In this document: piece by piece, positions 8,521 through 34,974 of the stretch
How the letters are laid out: each line of letters starts with the position of its first letter
How positions within the stretch are numbered: the stretch's first letter is position 1
Origin: a bacterium
GTDB lineage: Bacteria > JAHJDO01
Assembly: GCA_018812485.1 (NCBI GenBank)
Contig: JAHJDO010000108.1
Span: 1-37,498, forward strand
Length of the DNA stretch: 37,498 nt
Direction of reading: 5' to 3'
Made by a program: the position numbers and the translations under genes
Notes under the pieces: model-generated
Told to the model about the DNA's origin: nothing
The model's input: the letters and a program-made list of their open reading frames with translations, nothing else
Databases searched by the model: none

Positions 8521-10291
8521 AAATTTTTGTATTATTGCTCATATAGACCACGGAAAGTCTACATTAGCAGACAGAATTCTTCAATATACAAACACAATAG
8601 ATGATAGATTGTTTCGGGAACAGGTTCTGGACGATATGGATCTGGAAAGGGAACGCGGCATAACAATAAAAGCCAGAGCAGTAAGAATAAATTATGAACA
8701 TAAGGACAACAAGTCTTATATATTAAATCTTATAGATACTCCGGGTCATGTGGATTTTAGCTACGAAGTATCAAGAAGCATGAAAGCCTGTGAGGGAGCA
8801 ATTCTCCTAGTAGACGCTGCGCAGGGTATTCAAGCGCAGACAATGGCAAATCTTTATCTAGCATTGGATGCAGGTTTGACAGTAATTCCTGTAATAAATA
8901 AAATAGACCAGAAGAATGCAGATATAGAAGGGGTAAAGACACAGCTTAATAATATCGGGCTGGATAATAAAGATATCATATTAGCAAGCGCAAAAGAAGG
9001 GATAGGCACAGAGGAGATTTTATCAGCAGTAATAGATAGAATCCCATATCCGGAGGGTCAGGCAGACGCTCCTCTTCAATGCTTAATTTTCGATTCTAAT
9101 TTTGATACGTACAGAGGGGTGATTACATATGTCCGCGTTGTTAATGGGGAAGTTTATGCTTCAATGAAAATCAAAATGATGGGGACAAATAGAGTATATG
9201 AGGTTGATGAGATAGGTGTATTTAAGCCGGATATGATTCGCGCAGACAAGCTTTCTGCAGGCGAAGTAGGGTATGTAATGGCTAATATGAAAAACATATC
9301 TGATGCAACAATAGGAGATACGATCACAGGCGAGGCTTATCCTGCTAAATCTACTCTGCCCGGATACAAAAAAGCAAAGCCATTTGTATTCTGCGGTCTT
9401 TACCCGGTAAATTCTGCAGATGTTGATGCTTTGAGAGATGCGCTTGGGAAATTATCACTTAATGATGCGTCTTTTAGTTACCAGCCTGAGAGCCTGCCTT
9501 CTTTAGGATATGGATTCAGGTGCGGATTTTTGGGATTGCTGCATATGGATATTGTTCAGGAAAGACTTGAAAGGGAATACAATCTCAACCTCATCATCAC
9601 CATACCGAATGTCAGGTATCAGATAAAGAAGACTAACGGGCAAATTGTTGAGATGCATAACCCATCCGAGCTTCCTGATCCGGCGCGCATAGAAACTATA
9701 GAAGAACCGTATGTAAAGGCAATGCTTATTGTGCCAAAAGAATACGTCGGAGGCGTTATGGAGCTTTGCCAGAATAAAAGAAGCATATATAAGAGCATTG
9801 ATTATATAAATAAAAAAGCAGCAATGCTGGTTTATGAGATGCCTCTTATGGAAATGATAACAGATTTTTACGATCGGCTAAAATCTATAACCAAGGGATA
9901 TGGTTCAATGGATTATGAATATATTGGTTATAGAGAGGCAGATATAGTCAAGCTTGACATATTGATAAACGGAGAAGCGGTAGCTGCAATGTCTTCTATG
10001 GTGCATAGAGATAAGGCTTATTATAGAGGGAGGGAGCTAACAGGCAGGTTGAAACAGACAATACCAAAGCAGCTTATAAGCATTGCTATCCAGGCGGCAA
10101 TAGGAAGTAAAGTTATTGCAAGAGAAACTATTTCCGCTTTGAGAAAGGATGTTATTGCAAAACTATATGGTGGAGATGTTACAAGGAAAAATAAACTTTT
10201 AGAGAAGCAGAAGAAGGGCAAGAAGAGAATGAAACAGATAGGAAGCGTTTCTATCCCGCAAGAGGCATTTGTGGCTATGACCAGGGTTTAG
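8501..10291 (+). CDS. lepA: Elongation factor 4 (LepA), ribosome back-translocation GTPase
   Basis: Ribosome-binding translational GTPase of 596 residues. G1 is AHIDHGKST, switch region [15 protein letters not shown]3 DTPGHVDF and G4 NKID. The EF-4-specific C-terminal domain is intact and ends with the basic [18 protein letters not shown] segment. ATG 8501 has GAGG 6 bases upstream, whereas the in-frame TTG at 8489 has no RBS and adds non-family residues. The gene overlaps the DUF3108 gene by 20 bases and is followed by the signal peptidase gene, the classical lepA-lepB pairing. Confidence 0.97.
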
Positions 10292-10327
10292 GAATTTTAA
10301 ATTATGGATTTTAACATAGGAGTATTT

Positions 10328-10975
10328 ATGAACATATTGATCAAAAGAGTGCCGATGCATATCTTTTATCTTGCTATAGGATTGATTGTAGCAAGTGCTG
10401 TATTAAAGTACTTTATTAAAAGAGACAAAGTATCCTCTAAATGTAGCAAGATACTCAAATTTATTTTTGAATATGCGGATTCTGCAAGATCGGCATCTAT
10501 TCTTGCATTAATAATTGTTACGTTTATTGTGCAGACTTTTAGAATACCAACAGGGTCAATGATCCCTACCCTGAATATAGGGAATCATCTTATGGTAAAC
10601 AAGTTTATATACTATTTCAAAAAACCCAGAAGAGGGGATATTATTGTATTTGTGTATCCTGTTAATCCCAAAAAGGATTTCATAAAAAGATTGGTAGGTC
10701 TTCCTGGAGAAACAATACAGATAAAAGATGGGGGTGTTTTTATAAATGGAGAGGAACTGAAAGCTCCCCAAACAATAGCAGAACGGTATTATTACAATGA
10801 GGGGATGTATGGAGAAGGGCTTATTAAGATACCTGATAATGTATATTTTGTTATGGGAGACAATACAAGAAACAGCAAAGATTCGCGCTTCTGGGGATTT
10901 GTTCCAAAGAAGAATCTGTTAGGTAAGGCATTCTTTGTATACTGGCCATTAACAAGAATGCGTATAACAAGGTAA
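10328..10975 (+). CDS. lepB: Signal peptidase I
   Basis: Cleaves signal peptides from exported proteins at the outer face of the inner membrane. The 215 residues contain two N-terminal membrane segments (about 10-28 and 60-76) and the catalytic serine in RIPTGSMIPTL. The catalytic lysine is in FIKRLVGLPGE and box E is MGDNTRNSKDSR. ATG 10328 is preceded by AGGAG at 5 bases. An upstream in-frame ATG at 10304 has weaker support and would add eight residues. It lies 36 bases after lepA. Confidence 0.95.
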   Translation: MNILIKRVPMHIFYLAIGLIVASAVLKYFIKRDKVSSKCSKILKFIFEYADSARSASILALIIVTFIVQTFRIPTGSMIPTLNIGNHLMVNKFIYYFKKPRRGDIIVFVYPVNPKKDFIKRLVGLPGETIQIKDGGVFINGEELKAPQTIAERYYYNEGMYGEGLIKIPDNVYFVMGDNTRNSKDSRFWGFVPKKNLLGKAFFVYWPLTRMRITR

Positions 10976-25095: not shown

Positions 25096-28000
25096 ATGAA
25101 AAAAGATGTATTGCTAAGTAGTGTTAGATGTGTTTTGGCGGTAATGGTAGTATCTTTATTTTCCAATTTAGCTTTACAATCTCTGTGTTTCGCACAAGAA
25201 AATCAGGAAAATTTGGTAGCAAATCCAAGTTTTGAACTGGATGAAAACGAAGATGGATGTCCTGATGGCTGGACATTTGGGGGCTCAGCAAACGCACGCT
25301 TAATGAAGGGAATAGCAAAGACAGGAGATTATTGTGTAGAATTAAAACAAGGCGATGTAAAAGGCACTTATATTGGTCAGAGAATTAAAATGACGCCTGG
25401 AAAGGTATACGAAATATCTGTTCATTATAAGATGAAAGATATATCCGGGTCAAGTGGGCCAGCTGTTTACTATTATTGGAAGAAAGGCGGATGCTTTGTT
25501 AAAAAACCGGGAATAGAGGGTTACTTGCACGACTGGATTGTAGTTACCGGAGCAATAAAAGGGAGTAGCGAAGATTGGATAGAGGTTTCTAAGACCATTA
25601 TCTGTATTGAAGAAGCTGATAGCATAAAGCTAGCTCTACACATGTATGGCGAGCAAGATACTAATGGCACAATATGGTTTGATGATATAAGCGTAATTGA
25701 GATAAAAGAGAAAGAAATTGAAAGTGTTTCTGAGGGGCAAGATGGAAAGAAGGGTTCCACAAAAGGGGATGTGTTGTGTTACATCCCCTTTGAAAAAGAT
25801 ATTCAGCCATTAAGTGAGCTGATTGATATAATGCCAGAAACCGCAGGCGATTATTCACTGGCTGACGGCAAAAGAGGCAAAGCCATCAAATTTAATCCTG
25901 GTCTCTTTGAAGCCAGATATTATTATAAAAATAAAGTACCTCCATCAGCAATAAACTTTTGGATTAAAATAGAAAAGGATATTATTGAAAACCAAAAAAT
26001 TTACAGGATTTTACAGACTTCTTTTGGAACTGATTTTATTAGCCTGTTAGAGTTAAATAATCAAATCTTAAGGTATGTTATCAAAAAGGATAGTGCTCAA
26101 AAATGTTATTATTATCCAGTAAGTGATTGGGTTAAAAATAAATGGCATTACATTTATATTCCATTTAAAGATAATAATAGTCCATTTTACGTAGATGGGA
26201 TGCCTTCTTCAGTTATTTCGGATCCCAAGGTATCTGCAGAGATGCTGAAAGATGTGCCAATTACAACCAGGTATTTTTTCCAGATTGGTTCTTTTGGACA
26301 GAGCATTGAGAAAGTTAAGGACAGTATTTTAATTGACGAATTGCGAGCTTCCTCGGTTACTCTTTCAAAAGATGAAATAAAGGAAAGCTACTTATCTGGG
26401 CTAACCGATAAGTTAACATACCGTCCTCCTGTTGTCGAAGCCACGAGGTGTTCAAAGTCACCAGTCATAGATGGAATAATAGAGGAGAAAGAATGGCAAG
26501 ATGCTGGAAAATACACGGGTTTTGTGCATTTTGACAATGGCAATTATGCGGATAGACAGACATGGTTTTATGTTATGTATGATGATGTATCTTTATATAT
26601 GGCATTTGAATGTGAAACTAATGCTCTAATACAAGGTAAATCAAAGGAACGAGATGATAATCAAATCTGTATGGATGAATCAATAGAAGTGTTTCTGCGG
26701 ACAGTGGATACTCTTGAACTGGGATATTATCATTTTACGGGTAATTTCAGAGGAGATATATATGACGGATGGGGAATGGATAAAAAATGGAATGGAAGTT
26801 GGATATGGAAATGTCATAAAACAAATAATGGATGGTCTGGAGAGCTTTGTATTCCAGCAAAGGATTTAGGTGTTAATCATATCAATTACGGGGATAAATG
26901 GAGAATTAATGTTTGTCGAAACTATGGAGGCATGCCCTCTGAAGATAGATGGACTCAATGGGCGCATACTCCCGGCTCATATCACGATCAATCTAATTTT
27001 GGCAATCTGATATTTCCAAAAAACCCACTTATAGTGCATGCAAAAGAGATTAAAATTATTCCAGGGAGAGAGATTAGTATAAAGACAGATATTTCTGCCA
27101 CAGACCTGAAAGGTAAAAAAATTTATTCAACCTTAAAAATATATGCCAAGAATTCAGTTACAGATTCAATAGTTAAACATTCACAAAAAACAGCGGTTTC
27201 AAAGGGCGAATTCAAAACTATGGATATAGTCCAAAAATTGAGCTCCGCCGAAGGAGTGTTAGCCTACTCAATTAGAGATGCAACAGATGATAAAACTTAT
27301 TTATATCAAATGATTAATTTTGGAGAAAGAAAAGCTAAATCGAAGCGACTAGGAGATAAGGAGAAAAAACATGAACTTACCAAAACGAAACAAAAAAGCA
27401 AATATCTTACGCAAAGTGAGATCGATAAAGCAAAAGATGAGCAAAAGATATGGAAGAATAATAACCTGGGTAAGACCAGATGCGTGCTCCCCTCTTGGGA
27501 ACCCCTTCAGATTATAGATAATAAAGTAGTTACATGCTGGAATAGAAAGTATGCGGTAGGTGATAGCATTTTTATGAAGAACGTTAAAATCAATGAAAAA
27601 GATATATTTAATGAAGATATAAAACTTGTGATTATAGACGAAATGGATAATCGCACGATTTTTGATGTTGGGGAAAATAAGGTTGTTTCTTTTGAAAAAG
27701 ATAAGGCTGTTTTGAAATGTTCTACGATAAAAAATAGCTTTAAAATAGACATCAAGAAAGAAGTTGAATATGACGGAATGGTTAGGTTTGATTTCAGCAT
27801 TGAGCCTGTACAGAAGAAAGTTAAAATAAAAGAGATGTTTTTGGAACTATCCTTTAATAAAGAGTTAATGAAGTATTTTCACTATTTTTCGAGAAATCGA
27901 ATTCCTCCCGGTTCAGATGCAGGGCTTATTCCAAAAGAAGGCATATCGCTTGATTTCAGACCATTTGTATGGGTTGGAGATGACAACATGGGATTCGCAG

Positions 28001-29391
28001 TATTTAGGGAATCTGAAAGAAATTGTTATGTTTATAAAAGCAATAATAATTTTAAGATAATACCAAAATCTGATGTACTTATATTGAGATTAAACTTTAT
28101 AGATACATTATATGATTTGCATGAACCTTTGCAATATACAGTGGGCATGCAGGCTACGCCGGTAAAACCGCTTCCTGAAGATTGGCGGACCTGGGGGTAT
28201 GAGAGAACATTTGCAAATCCGTGGAGCACATTGCAGGAATGGGATTCGTTTGGAAAGGGAGAAGAAATGTGTGTTGACCCAGTGCAAGCAAAAATAATGG
28301 CAAGAAGATATCGTAAGCAAGGGAAAAAAGTGATGCCGTACTATCCAATTGGCATGTTTAGGCATTGGTTGCGAGATGGGCGATTACGACCTGAGGCTAA
28401 GTTATTTGGAAATGAATGGCTGGCAGCCGGTACAAAAATAAAGCCCGGAGTAGTTCCTCGAAAATATGAAATTGCATATGGATCAGGAATGTCCTATATT
28501 TCTGTATGTCCAAGGTCTGACTGGGCAGATTACTATATGTGGAATCTAAATCGGATGATAGATGATTTAGAGATAGGAGCAGTCTATCTGGATGGTTCAT
28601 TTTCTTTGTGTGCTAATGAGACACATGGATGTGGGTACATAGATAAGAATGGAGATTGGAAACCTGAATACAATTTTTTTGCCTGTCGCGATCTTGTGAA
28701 AAGAATACGCACTCTCTTTTATGAAAAAGGTGAAAAACCGCCATGTATATTCATCCACACATCTGGTTGGACCAATATCCCTGTTATTTCTTTTGCAGAT
28801 ATATACTGTGATGGTGAACAGTATAATGCGGGAAATGTTCGGGTAAAGGAACATTATACAGAAGTATTGCCTATTGATAAAATACGGGCAATGACTATGG
28901 GGAAACAGTGGGGTGCGGCTCAGCTATTTCTCCCTGAACTGCATGGTGATTGGGATAAGCCGGAAGCTCCGACCAGAGAACTTTTGGCTATGCTCTTGAT
29001 CCATGATATCCTAATATGGCCTGCTTATTGTAATGCAGAAGTTGTTAGAAGTGTTTATGAAATCAAAAAGGATTTTGGAATGGAAAAGGTGGAATTTTTT
29101 CCATACTGGGAAAGACATCAGGTATTCTGCGATAATGATAAGATTAAAATAAGCTATTATAAAAAGATTTCCTCAAATGACCAGAAATACCTGTTAATAG
29201 TCAGCAATTTAACTAATGAAGTGCAATTTGCTCAGATCAAACTAGATTTTAATGTCCCTAATAGTAAAATGATTAAGCTTTTTGACTTGGAAAATAAGAG
29301 ATTTCTTGATTGCGAAAATAAGTCATTTTCTGTACCTGTAAAGAGTTATGATTTTAGATTGATTGAGGTAAATATTTCTGGACTGGAATAG
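25096..29391 (+). CDS. Large secreted multidomain glycoside-hydrolase-like protein (CBM, LamG-like, CBM9-like, DUF6067/GH123-like)
   Basis: 1431 residues with a signal peptide of about 33 residues ending SLCFAQ. Domain 1 (about 38-200) is a CBM4/9-like beta-sandwich starting NLVANPSFELDENEDG. Domain 2 (about 224-440) resembles a LamG/concanavalin-like sandwich. Domain 3 (about 445-640) is CBM9/DOMON-like (SPVIDGIIEEKEWQDAG). A Lys-rich linker leads to a region from about 790 to 1425 of DUF6067/GH123 type: a beta domain and then a TIM-barrel-like part with GAVYLDGSF, ADIYCDGEQYN and LPELHGDWD as candidate active-site loops. The RBS AAAGGAG is 10 bases upstream. It probably degrades a complex polysaccharide outside the cytoplasm. 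The substrate and the catalytic pair are not determinable here. Confidence 0.75.
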   Translation: MKKDVLLSSVRCVLAVMVVSLFSNLALQSLCFAQENQENLVANPSFELDENEDGCPDGWTFGGSANARLMKGIAKTGDYCVELKQGDVKGTYIGQRIKMTPGKVYEISVHYKMKDISGSSGPAVYYYWKKGGCFVKKPGIEGYLHDWIVVTGAIKGSSEDWIEVSKTIICIEEADSIKLALHMYGEQDTNGTIWFDDISVIEIKEKEIESVSEGQDGKKGSTKGDVLCYIPFEKDIQPLSELIDIMPETAGDYSLADGKRGKAIKFNPGLFEARYYYKNKVPPSAINFWIKIEKDIIENQKIYRILQTSFGTDFISLLELNNQILRYVIKKDSAQKCYYYPVSDWVKNKWHYIYIPFKDNNSPFYVDGMPSSVISDPKVSAEMLKDVPITTRYFFQIGSFGQSIEKVKDSILIDELRASSVTLSKDEIKESYLSGLTDKLTYRPPVVEATRCSKSPVIDGIIEEKEWQDAGKYTGFVHFDNGNYADRQTWFYVMYDDVSLYMAFECETNALIQGKSKERDDNQICMDESIEVFLRTVDTLELGYYHFTGNFRGDIYDGWGMDKKWNGSWIWKCHKTNNGWSGELCIPAKDLGVNHINYGDKWRINVCRNYGGMPSEDRWTQWAHTPGSYHDQSNFGNLIFPKNPLIVHAKEIKIIPGREISIKTDISATDLKGKKIYSTLKIYAKNSVTDSIVKHSQKTAVSKGEFKTMDIVQKLSSAEGVLAYSIRDATDDKTYLYQMINFGERKAKSKRLGDKEKKHELTKTKQKSKYLTQSEIDKAKDEQKIWKNNNLGKTRCVLPSWEPLQIIDNKVVTCWNRKYAVGDSIFMKNVKINEKDIFNEDIKLVIIDEMDNRTIFDVGENKVVSFEKDKAVLKCSTIKNSFKIDIKKEVEYDGMVRFDFSIEPVQKKVKIKEMFLELSFNKELMKYFHYFSRNRIPPGSDAGLIPKEGISLDFRPFVWVGDDNMGFAVFRESERNCYVYKSNNNFKIIPKSDVLILRLNFIDTLYDLHEPLQYTVGMQATPVKPLPEDWRTWGYERTFANPWSTLQEWDSFGKGEEMCVDPVQAKIMARRYRKQGKKVMPYYPIGMFRHWLRDGRLRPEAKLFGNEWLAAGTKIKPGVVPRKYEIAYGSGMSYISVCPRSDWADYYMWNLNRMIDDLEIGAVYLDGSFSLCANETHGCGYIDKNGDWKPEYNFFACRDLVKRIRTLFYEKGEKPPCIFIHTSGWTNIPVISFADIYCDGEQYNAGNVRVKEHYTEVLPIDKIRAMTMGKQWGAAQLFLPELHGDWDKPEAPTRELLAMLLIHDILIWPAYCNAEVVRSVYEIKKDFGMEKVEFFPYWERHQVFCDNDKIKISYYKKISSNDQKYLLIVSNLTNEVQFAQIKLDFNVPNSKMIKLFDLENKRFLDCENKSFSVPVKSYDFRLIEVNISGLE

Positions 29392-29429
29392 ACTAAAAGC
29401 TATAATAATTAAGAGGAGGTCTTGCAAAA

Positions 29430-29756
29430 ATGGAAATATTTGGAGCAGGAGTAATAGGTTTAAATATGGGAGAAGGGCATATTAAAGGATATTTAGACAA
29501 TCCTTATACTGAAGTAAAGGGAATATGCGATACTAATAAAAAATTATTGGAATGTATAAAGAAAAAATCACCTTTCACAAAAACATTCGTTATAGAACTG
29601 GCTGGAGGTTACCTTGGATATATTGCTACAAGCGAATCTTTTAAACAGGGAGATTATGAATCAACAGGTTCAGCTTTCAAGCCAGAAACGGGTAATATTT
29701 TAAGAGATAAGGCATTAGAATTACTCAACTTATTGTATGCAAATAAAAACATATAA
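29430..29756 (+). pseudogene. Chimeric remnant: Gfo/Idh N-terminus joined in frame to ceramidase-like C-terminus
   Basis: The 108 codons split into two unrelated parts. Residues 1-45 (GAGVIGLNMGEGHIKGY, then EVKGICDTN) are the start of a Gfo/Idh/MocA Rossmann domain, including the nucleotide loop and the Asp at the end of the second strand. Residues about 47-108 (SPFTKTFVIELAGGYLGYIA, then a YES...ETGNILRDKALELL end) match the extreme C-terminus of neutral/alkaline ceramidase-like proteins. The junction is near base 29565. A strong RBS (GAGGAGG) remains, so a product may be made, but neither half could be active. A deletion joining two formerly adjacent genes is the simplest origin. Confidence 0.7.
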
Positions 29757-29770
29757 GAAAGGGAGAGAAA

Positions 29771-30400
29771 ATGTTAACTAAAATCAGGAAAGTTTTGGGA
29801 AACAGGAAAAGTTTTACGCTCATTGAGCTTTTGGTCGTGATAGCCATAATAGCTCTGCTTGCATCAGTGCTTTTGCCTGCATTATCAAAAGCAAGGGAGA
29901 TGGGAAGACGGGCAAAATGCATCAGTAATCTAAGACAGATGCATACAATGCTTATGATGTATGCATCGGATTGGGATGACTATTTGCCAATGGGTTATGG
30001 TGGCGCTGGTTATACATGGTGTGAGCAATTACAAATGTACGGCGCTAAATTCGGCAATAAAGGGGTTAGTTCAGTATTGTTTTGCAAAAGTAATCCAAAT
30101 GCTATGATGGCAACAGGTGCATTTCCTGGATATAGTGTCAACTATGCTTATAACCTGTATTTTGGAAATACTGATTTCTTGCCTAGGCAGTTAAGACTAT
30201 CTAAGATTAGCATTCCCACAGAGAAAATGATAGCGTGTGATGGTGGGGAAGATATTAATGGAGGAGCACATTATCGAATAAGCAATAGTTCTAGAGTTGG
30301 TCATGTGCATAACGATGGCGCAAATTTTCTTTTCTGTGACGGACACGTTAGCTGGTACGCAGAGGGCGACGTAGATGATGACCGGTGGTCTCTTCCTTAA
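29771..30400 (+). CDS. Type IV pilin-like protein with H-X9-DG C-terminal motif
   Basis: 209 residues. The prepilin peptidase site and hydrophobic helix read [20 protein letters not shown] with Glu at the fifth position after cleavage, followed by [23 protein letters not shown]. The C-terminal [14 protein letters not shown] has a His, nine residues and Asp-Gly: the H-X9-DG processing-associated motif. Such proteins are greatly expanded in Planctomycetes, Verrucomicrobia and Lentisphaerota, which is one of the main taxonomic clues here. The RBS GGGAG is 7 bases before the ATG. It is probably a pseudopilin-like envelope protein; its link to polysaccharide breakdown is positional only. Confidence 0.9.
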
Positions 30401-30418
30401 AAGTTAGAGGATAATAGG

Positions 30419-30591
30419 ATGACACCTAAAGAATGTTTTAAAGCAATTTTTAAGTATAATGAAGACTTTGACAGGCATCCTACCACATACTATATACTAT
30501 GAAACACCGGGAATAAATCAAGAACTAATGGATTATTTCTCTATCAATTCGCGGGAAGAATTAAGACATAAAATTACTATAGGAGATTGCT
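30419..30591 (+). pseudogene. URO-D family N-terminal remnant, frameshifted and truncated
   Basis: ATG 30419 (preceded by AGAGG and AGG) reads MTPKECFKAIFKYNEDFDRH and stops at 30502. The next frame continues with YYETPGINQELMDYFSINSR then EELRHKI up to the next gene. Joined, these match the first 55-60 residues of URO-D/cobamide methyltransferase-like proteins, with the FDR(H)P motif and a helix pair. A frameshift lies near 30475-30490, and everything after the N-terminus is missing. The intact Gfo/Idh gene starts directly afterwards with its own RBS. Confidence 0.65.
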
Positions 30592-31806
30592 ATGAAAAAA
30601 AGATATGCTTTGGTCGGAACAGGCGGGCGTGGAGTAGCTATGTTTGCCAGACCTATTGTTGAAAAGTATAAGAAACAAGCAGAACTTGTTGCCATGTGTG
30701 ATGTCAATCCGAAGAGACTGGAACTTGCTAATAGCATTATAAAACGCCATGTCCCAACTTATACTAATTTTGATAAGATGCTCAAAGAAGTCAAATTTGA
30801 TACGCTTATTGTTGCTACAAAGGATTCAACCCACCATGAGTTTATTATTAGGGCTCTGGAGACCGGACATGATGTTATTACTGAAAAGCCAATGACAATC
30901 GATGATGAGAAATGCAGAGCTATACTTGGAGCTGAGAAAAAGAGTGAAAAAAAAGTTACAGTTACTTTCAATTACCGTTATGTTCCATATGTAACACGCA
31001 TAAAAGAACTTCTTTGTAAAGGTATTATTGGTGATATTATCTCGGTTGATTTTAGCTATTATCTGGACACCTCACACGGAGCAGATTATTTTCGCAGATG
31101 GCACAGGAGAAAGGAAAATTCAGGCGGGCTTCTTGTCCACAAAGCAACGCATCACTTTGATCTGGTTAACTGGTTTTTAGATGATGAGCCTGAAGAGGTA
31201 TTTGCCAGAGGGGCATTGAGATTTTACGGTCATACCAGAGAAGATAGAAGCGAGAGGTGTTTGACATGTAAGTATAAAAAGACCTGCGAGTTTTATTTTG
31301 ATATTGAAAAGAAAGAACTGAATAAAAACTTTTATCGTAAGGCAGAAGACGAAGATAAATATTACAGGGATAGATGTGTATTCAGTGATGAAATTGATAT
31401 TGAGGATACAATGTCAGTGTGTGTGGCCTATAAAAAGAGCACATTCTTAAATTATAGCCTTAATGCCTTTCTGCCTTATGAAGGATGGAGGATGTCTTTG
31501 AATGGGAAAAAAGGAAGGCTTGAAGCAGAGGAGTTTCATAGTTTTCCGGGAGGCATACCTGAGGAGAAGCAAATAAGGATTTACCCATTATTTAAGAAGC
31601 CGAGAATTATCAAGGTTCCTAAAGCTGCGGGCGGACATGGCGGAGGGGATGAAAGGCTTGAGGATATGCTTTTTAAAGAGAGGATTCCAGATCCTCTGGG
31701 GCATCAGGCTGGTTCATGGGGTGGAGCTATGTCTATATTGATTGGAATTGCCGGAAATAAGTCTATAAAGACGGGAAAACCTGTTAAGATTAAATCATTA
31801 CTTTGA
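30592..31806 (+). CDS. Gfo/Idh/MocA family oxidoreductase
   Basis: NAD(P)-dependent sugar or cyclitol dehydrogenase family member of 404 residues. The nucleotide-binding loop LVGTGGRGVAMF is followed by AMCDVNPKRLE, and the catalytic lysine is in TEKPMT near residue 98. NSGGLLVHKATHHFDLVNWF is the usual C-terminal-domain histidine block. An insertion carries four cysteines at about residues 223, 226, 232 and 262 (RCLTCKYKKTC, RDRC), which could bind a metal. The RBS AGGAG is 7 bases before the ATG. It forms a probable operon with the alpha/beta hydrolase 12 bases later. The substrate is unknown. Confidence 0.9.
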   Translation: MKKRYALVGTGGRGVAMFARPIVEKYKKQAELVAMCDVNPKRLELANSIIKRHVPTYTNFDKMLKEVKFDTLIVATKDSTHHEFIIRALETGHDVITEKPMTIDDEKCRAILGAEKKSEKKVTVTFNYRYVPYVTRIKELLCKGIIGDIISVDFSYYLDTSHGADYFRRWHRRKENSGGLLVHKATHHFDLVNWFLDDEPEEVFARGALRFYGHTREDRSERCLTCKYKKTCEFYFDIEKKELNKNFYRKAEDEDKYYRDRCVFSDEIDIEDTMSVCVAYKKSTFLNYSLNAFLPYEGWRMSLNGKKGRLEAEEFHSFPGGIPEEKQIRIYPLFKKPRIIKVPKAAGGHGGGDERLEDMLFKERIPDPLGHQAGSWGGAMSILIGIAGNKSIKTGKPVKIKSLL

Positions 31807-34460: not shown

Positions 34461-34884
34461 ATGAGAACTAAACTATTACAAAAGACTTATAGAATAGCCA
34501 GCTGGTGGTTAGTTTGGGAAGATTTAATATATCCTGATAAGGGAATTGAAGAGAAGATTACAAAAAAAGCTGAGAGATTCAAGGAATCTGGTTATAGAAT
34601 TAGGGCTTGATATACTTGAAGAGATTCAACCTGATGCTGCAGGTATGGATACTGAAGAACTACATAATGAATTCTATGGTAAAATTGCTTTCTGCGGTAG
34701 TATAAGCACCCAACATCTATTACCATCTGTCACTGTTAATCAAGTTATAAAGGCAATAAACTTAAGAAAAGAACTGTTTGCTAAAGGCGGATTGATAATC
34801 GCTCCAGATCATAATATTCAGGTTGGCACACCAATAGAAAACATAATAGCAATGTATGAAACTATTGGAAGTTTAAGAATATAA
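34461..34884 (+). pseudogene. Chimeric remnant: glycosidase-like N-terminus joined to URO-D C-terminus
   Basis: ATG 34461 reads RTKLLQKTYRIASWWLVWED, then an IEEKITKKAERFKESGY segment and a stop at 34608. I associate this start with large glycoside-hydrolase-like proteins of polysaccharide loci, from memory of the pattern. From about 34588 a different frame reads LVIELGLDILEEIQPDAAGM to IIAPDHNIQVGTP, ENIIAMYE and a stop at 34884. This is the last 95-100 residues of a URO-D family protein. The joint is out of frame, near 34590. The URO-D half is recognised with more confidence than the first half. Confidence 0.68.
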
Positions 34885-34974
34885 AAATCTTCATGATTTT
34901 TCCAATATGTTATGGACTCATACATACGAACGTTCTGGTTATTCAGGAAGATCATACTATCGAACAGCCAGTAC

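Follow-up and report, generated by a model that had tools for sequence, protein, structure and literature searches.

The short open reading frame at positions 29430-29756 of the window, which is the whole stretch of 37,498 nucleotides analysed here, is very probably the in-frame deletion scar of a two-gene cluster made up of a Gfo/Idh oxidoreductase gene and a neutral-ceramidase-like gene. It is most likely an ordinary remnant of gene decay whose product is not a working new protein. This explanation is supported by the match of the ends of the frame to natural gene ends, by the recurrence of the same gene order in other genomes, by the absence of a second ceramidase middle, and by a split URO-D gene nearby. 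The window is contig C108 of its own genome (G000; 2.68 Mb in 172 contigs), and the features referred to below are as follows.

29412..29419, + strand: strong Shine-Dalgarno-like stretch AGAGGAGG, read from the sequence
29430-29756, + strand: chimeric open reading frame, ATG at 29430, stop ending at 29756, 108 amino acids
29430..29567, + strand: 5' remnant of a Gfo/Idh-type oxidoreductase gene, codons 1 to about 40-46, 50% identity to the G042 protein
29549..29567, + strand: junction interval, set by the similarity limits of both halves
29556..29756, + strand: 3' remnant of a neutral-ceramidase-like gene with its stop near the natural one, 75% identity to the end of the protein on contig C11 of G000
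30411..30566, + strand: URO-D-like 5' remnant, frame broken, 83.3% nucleotide identity to the start of the gene on contig C67 of G000
34546..34886, + strand: URO-D-like 3' remnant, 90.8% nucleotide identity over 34592-34886 to the end of the C67 gene, PF01208 2.5e-05

The two halves and their junction

The first-pass annotation described an in-frame chimera of a Gfo/Idh start and a ceramidase-like end, and both halves are matched beyond chance. Residues 1-46 of the frame align with residues 1-46 of a 336-aa Gfo/Idh protein from genome G042, the best relative of this half (E 2.3e-9), start codon on start codon, which bears out the Rossmann N-terminus proposed for residues 1-45. The G042 protein scores 4.5e-32 against GFO_IDH_MocA, and a scan of genome contigs found it, 100% identical, in the record Ca. 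Desantisbacteria bacterium CG1_02_38_46. Like the Gfo/Idh/MocA oxidoreductases (PF01408, PF02894), the chimera begins with the start of a Rossmann domain; unlike them, it lacks about 290 residues, comprising the remainder of that domain and the C-terminal domain. The complete Rossmann domain (about 120 aa) is absent, as only about 46 residues align, and a tblastn search of 29300-29900 with a full Gfo/Idh relative gave a significant E value for residues 1-46 only, the C-terminal alpha/beta domain being absent. No Gfo/Idh model in Pfam matched the frame at E<=1. Two NCBIfam matches, at 0.017 and 0.032, lie far below their cut-offs and were not used; the second, to a Gfo/Idh-type model over residues 6-46, agrees with the Gfo/Idh reading. 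The own genome contains 18 places related to the G042 protein at E<=1e-10, the best two at 31% and none above 38% identity, and with the N-terminal half as query only the chimera itself and a single weak match (E 0.26) came up, so the remainder of the lost Gfo/Idh gene was not located at any other place in the assembly.

Within the own genome, residues 43-105 correspond to the final part of an intact protein of 441 aa encoded on contig C11 (E 2.0e-26). That protein itself scores 1.2e-09 against PF04734 (neutral ceramidase), and the frame stops only a few codons away from where ceramidases naturally end. The ceramidase-like end assigned in the first pass to residues 47-108 is thus confirmed. 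The chimera resembles the neutral/alkaline ceramidase family in carrying this protein end and differs from it in that the first roughly 377 residues are gone, including the N-terminal part scored by PF04734 in relatives (about residues 2-220). In Pfam the chimera reaches only E 0.11 with Ceramidase_alk, so that Pfam alone, giving no Gfo/Idh match either, would miss it. The other four genomes of the phylum that were searched all belong to the same genus as the own genome. Three of them contain a full-length relative with 69-77% identity, which extends only from residues 42/43 to 104/106 of the chimera, and the fourth (62% complete) gave no match to the chimera at E<=1e-6. These relatives are assigned by sequence as ceramidases of putative activity. 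At the three places read at length (in G000, G002 and G003), a gene that by eye looks aminotransferase-like, with a similar start in each, lies 3' of the ceramidase gene.

The own genome has one intact ceramidase of the C11 kind besides the fragment in the window, and the missing ceramidase middle is absent from the other contigs of the assembly. In a tree of 15 rows and 67 columns, the C-terminal half of the chimera is sister to four sequences of the genus, with support of 85/82 for the four and 97/95 for the five. The C-terminal half therefore seems to derive from an older, second ceramidase copy and not from the C11 gene, and the sister position is that expected for a remnant of such a copy. 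Derivation from the C11 gene by mis-joining was considered and rejected, given a nucleotide difference of about 18% between them.

Similarity to ceramidases starts sharply at codon 43 (29556), the preceding codons being unlike ceramidases, and similarity to Gfo/Idh proteins fades between codons about 40 and 46. A break therefore exists where one was first reported, near 29565, although it is placed slightly earlier, within about 29549-29567. The join falls at an A-rich run: ATAAAGAAAAAATC at 29556-29569 (codons ATA AAG AAA AAA TC) matches the beginning of the G002 ceramidase segment at all 14 bases.

The GAGGAGG reported upstream of the frame is present within AGAGGAGG, ahead of the ATG at 29430. 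In the window this motif lies no more than 20 bases 5' of 3 of the 867 ATG triplets on the + strand; the survey also took in 24 open reading frame starts, which were set mechanically and some of which are probably wrong. The site was most likely inherited from the lost Gfo/Idh gene.

Gene order in relatives and the proposed deletion

Gene order was read at 25 loci carrying relatives of the G042 Gfo/Idh protein. At five of them (L046, which is the G042 locus, L053, L055, L057 and L062) the Gfo/Idh relative is followed directly by a ceramidase-like gene on the same strand, with 3-74 bases between. G042 has one ceramidase-like gene directly after its Gfo/Idh gene and another directly before it; a directly upstream gene is also found in L052, and one further upstream in L065. 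The remaining 18 loci, several of which end at contig ends, show no ceramidase-like open reading frame (at least 120 aa, E<=1e-3). The five downstream genes match PF04734 at 9.3e-13 to 1e-4, and four of them fall below the Pfam cut-off (21.5-31.8 against 32.1 bits), for which reason "ceramidase-like" is the right wording. The five loci with the pair come from Desantisbacteria and gut Clostridia bins. A search of the literature by title found nothing on a Gfo/Idh-ceramidase gene pair, the titles seen being general ones on pseudogenes and gene fusion (e.g. PMC9336565, PMC522871).

With the genes in this order, the chimera is obtainable by one deletion. The starting point would have been an adjacent Gfo/Idh oxidoreductase gene and neutral-ceramidase-like hydrolase gene, in that order. 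A single internal deletion of about 2 kb (2.0-2.1 kb, as estimated from relatives), perhaps at A-rich microhomology, would have removed roughly 290 codons of the first gene, a short spacer and roughly 377 codons of the second. The break would have kept the frame, so that the ribosome site and start of the first gene now run on to about the stop of the second. A simple deletion accounts for the chimera, as its ends correspond to the natural start of one gene and the natural end of another, and these genes lie side by side in several other genomes. The lineage would once have had the intact pair, and the product of the join would be without function. Three observations were counted against the deletion: 20 of the 25 Gfo/Idh loci have no ceramidase directly downstream (some are cut by contig ends), the intact pair was not found at this locus in any of the four genomes of the same genus, and the C-terminal half, free of stops and frameshifts, still has a low dN/dS against relatives.

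The chimera lies between an open reading frame of 1431 aa that runs from 25096 to 29391 and a pilin-like protein of 209 aa that starts at 29771 (N_methyl 3.4e-07, SBP_bac_10/DUF1559 4.4e-10). Neither flanking gene has a close relative in the four same-genus genomes. Further downstream, two URO-D pieces about 4 kb apart correspond to one intact 352-aa URO-D-like gene on C67 (10283-11341), with 72% and 81% of their amino acids identical, and no middle piece was matched. Between them lie a Gfo/Idh gene, an esterase-like gene and another URO-D-like gene. Together with the chimera, the split URO-D gene makes two cases of a broken gene within about 5 kb. Separately, a 51% relative of the window's Gfo/Idh gene at 30592-31806, located on contig C60 of G000 (9327-10586, L092), contains one in-frame TAA and is possibly an eroded gene. 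The arrangement around the chimera is like that of prokaryotic pseudogenes left as truncated or fused remnants, with enzyme fragments, intact relatives in the own or related genomes and an eroded gene adjoining. Unlike the usual gene remnants, the chimera kept its frame across the join and so forms a clean open reading frame.

Competing explanations and significance

That all 108 residues form one conserved small family, the finding that would have overturned the chimera, is exceedingly improbable. Pfam and NCBIfam gave no family match for the chimera at cut-off, and the halves match separate families. With the chimera as query at E<=0.001, matches were obtained in 13 of 59 genomes, the own genome included, and all rows but one, the window itself aside, cover a single half, ending at residue 46 or beginning at 39-49. 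The one exception, and the only point in favour of a single family, is a row from G013 that spans the junction (32% over residues 23-107, E 1.2e-4); it was not reproduced by tblastn at E<=1, and the long open reading frames at this place (L011) are on the opposite strand and, judged by eye, resemble an NtrC-like regulator and a histidine kinase. A scan of genome contigs with the chimera found no relative. Matches in the PDB to phosphofructokinase (whole-sequence value 2.8e-05 at best, made up of several weak stretches with a best i-Evalue of 2.6) and to 14-3-3 proteins (0.1 and worse) were taken as chance.

The main rival to the deletion scar, though an unlikely one, is an assembly artefact of the metagenome bin, in which two contigs or strains were merged at the A-rich stretch. 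The assembly is indeed fragmented (172 contigs), with an estimated contamination of 4.93%, and the join does lie at an A-rich run. However, what is shared with known ceramidases is a short stretch of 14 bases at most, no other contig of the assembly carries the ceramidase middle, and the two halves represent the ends of genes adjacent in other genomes, joined in the right order with the frame kept. The first-pass suggestion of a new small protein, translated from the inherited strong ribosome site and kept for some function, is possible but unlikely. The open frame and the ribosome site favour it, as does the state of the two halves: neither carries a disabling change, the C-terminal half having no stop or frameshift, and the dN/dS of the latter against the genus sequences is 0.10-0.29, with 0.07-0.27 among the genus sequences themselves (62 codons). 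Decay after the join is therefore not demonstrated. These ratios, however, mostly reflect evolution that preceded the join. If the join is recent, as it may be, an intact C-terminal half with low dN/dS is to be expected and reveals little about how selection acts on the fusion. The dN of the C-terminal half to the genus sequences is 0.14-0.15, against 0.04-0.09 among them, over 62 codons and with the chimera also being the more distant copy. Half of a nucleotide-binding domain joined to a hydrolase end, with the rest of both proteins missing, would be unlikely to fold by itself, and the structure model of the chimera is poor (mean pLDDT 52.8, pTM 0.39, residues 1-35 below 50); its input was an alignment of 11 rows, in which no other row spans the junction, and with so thin an alignment the poor model is by itself weak evidence. 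Both halves in one frame were seen in no other genome searched. A new small protein is thus not supported, given the natural gene ends, the simple deletion that accounts for them, the most likely inherited ribosome site and the poor model, to which the restriction of the chimera to this genome and the second nearby gene in fragments are added.

The case serves mainly as a caution: the scar of a deletion that keeps the frame can pass for an intact small gene preceded by a good ribosome site, and a hypothetical protein would be annotated there. Birth of a gene in one step by deletion between neighbouring genes, with a translated 108-aa fusion that took over the ribosome site and gained some role, is improbable here. 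Should the product prove to be translated and retained, it would exemplify the origin of a new gene in a single deletion.
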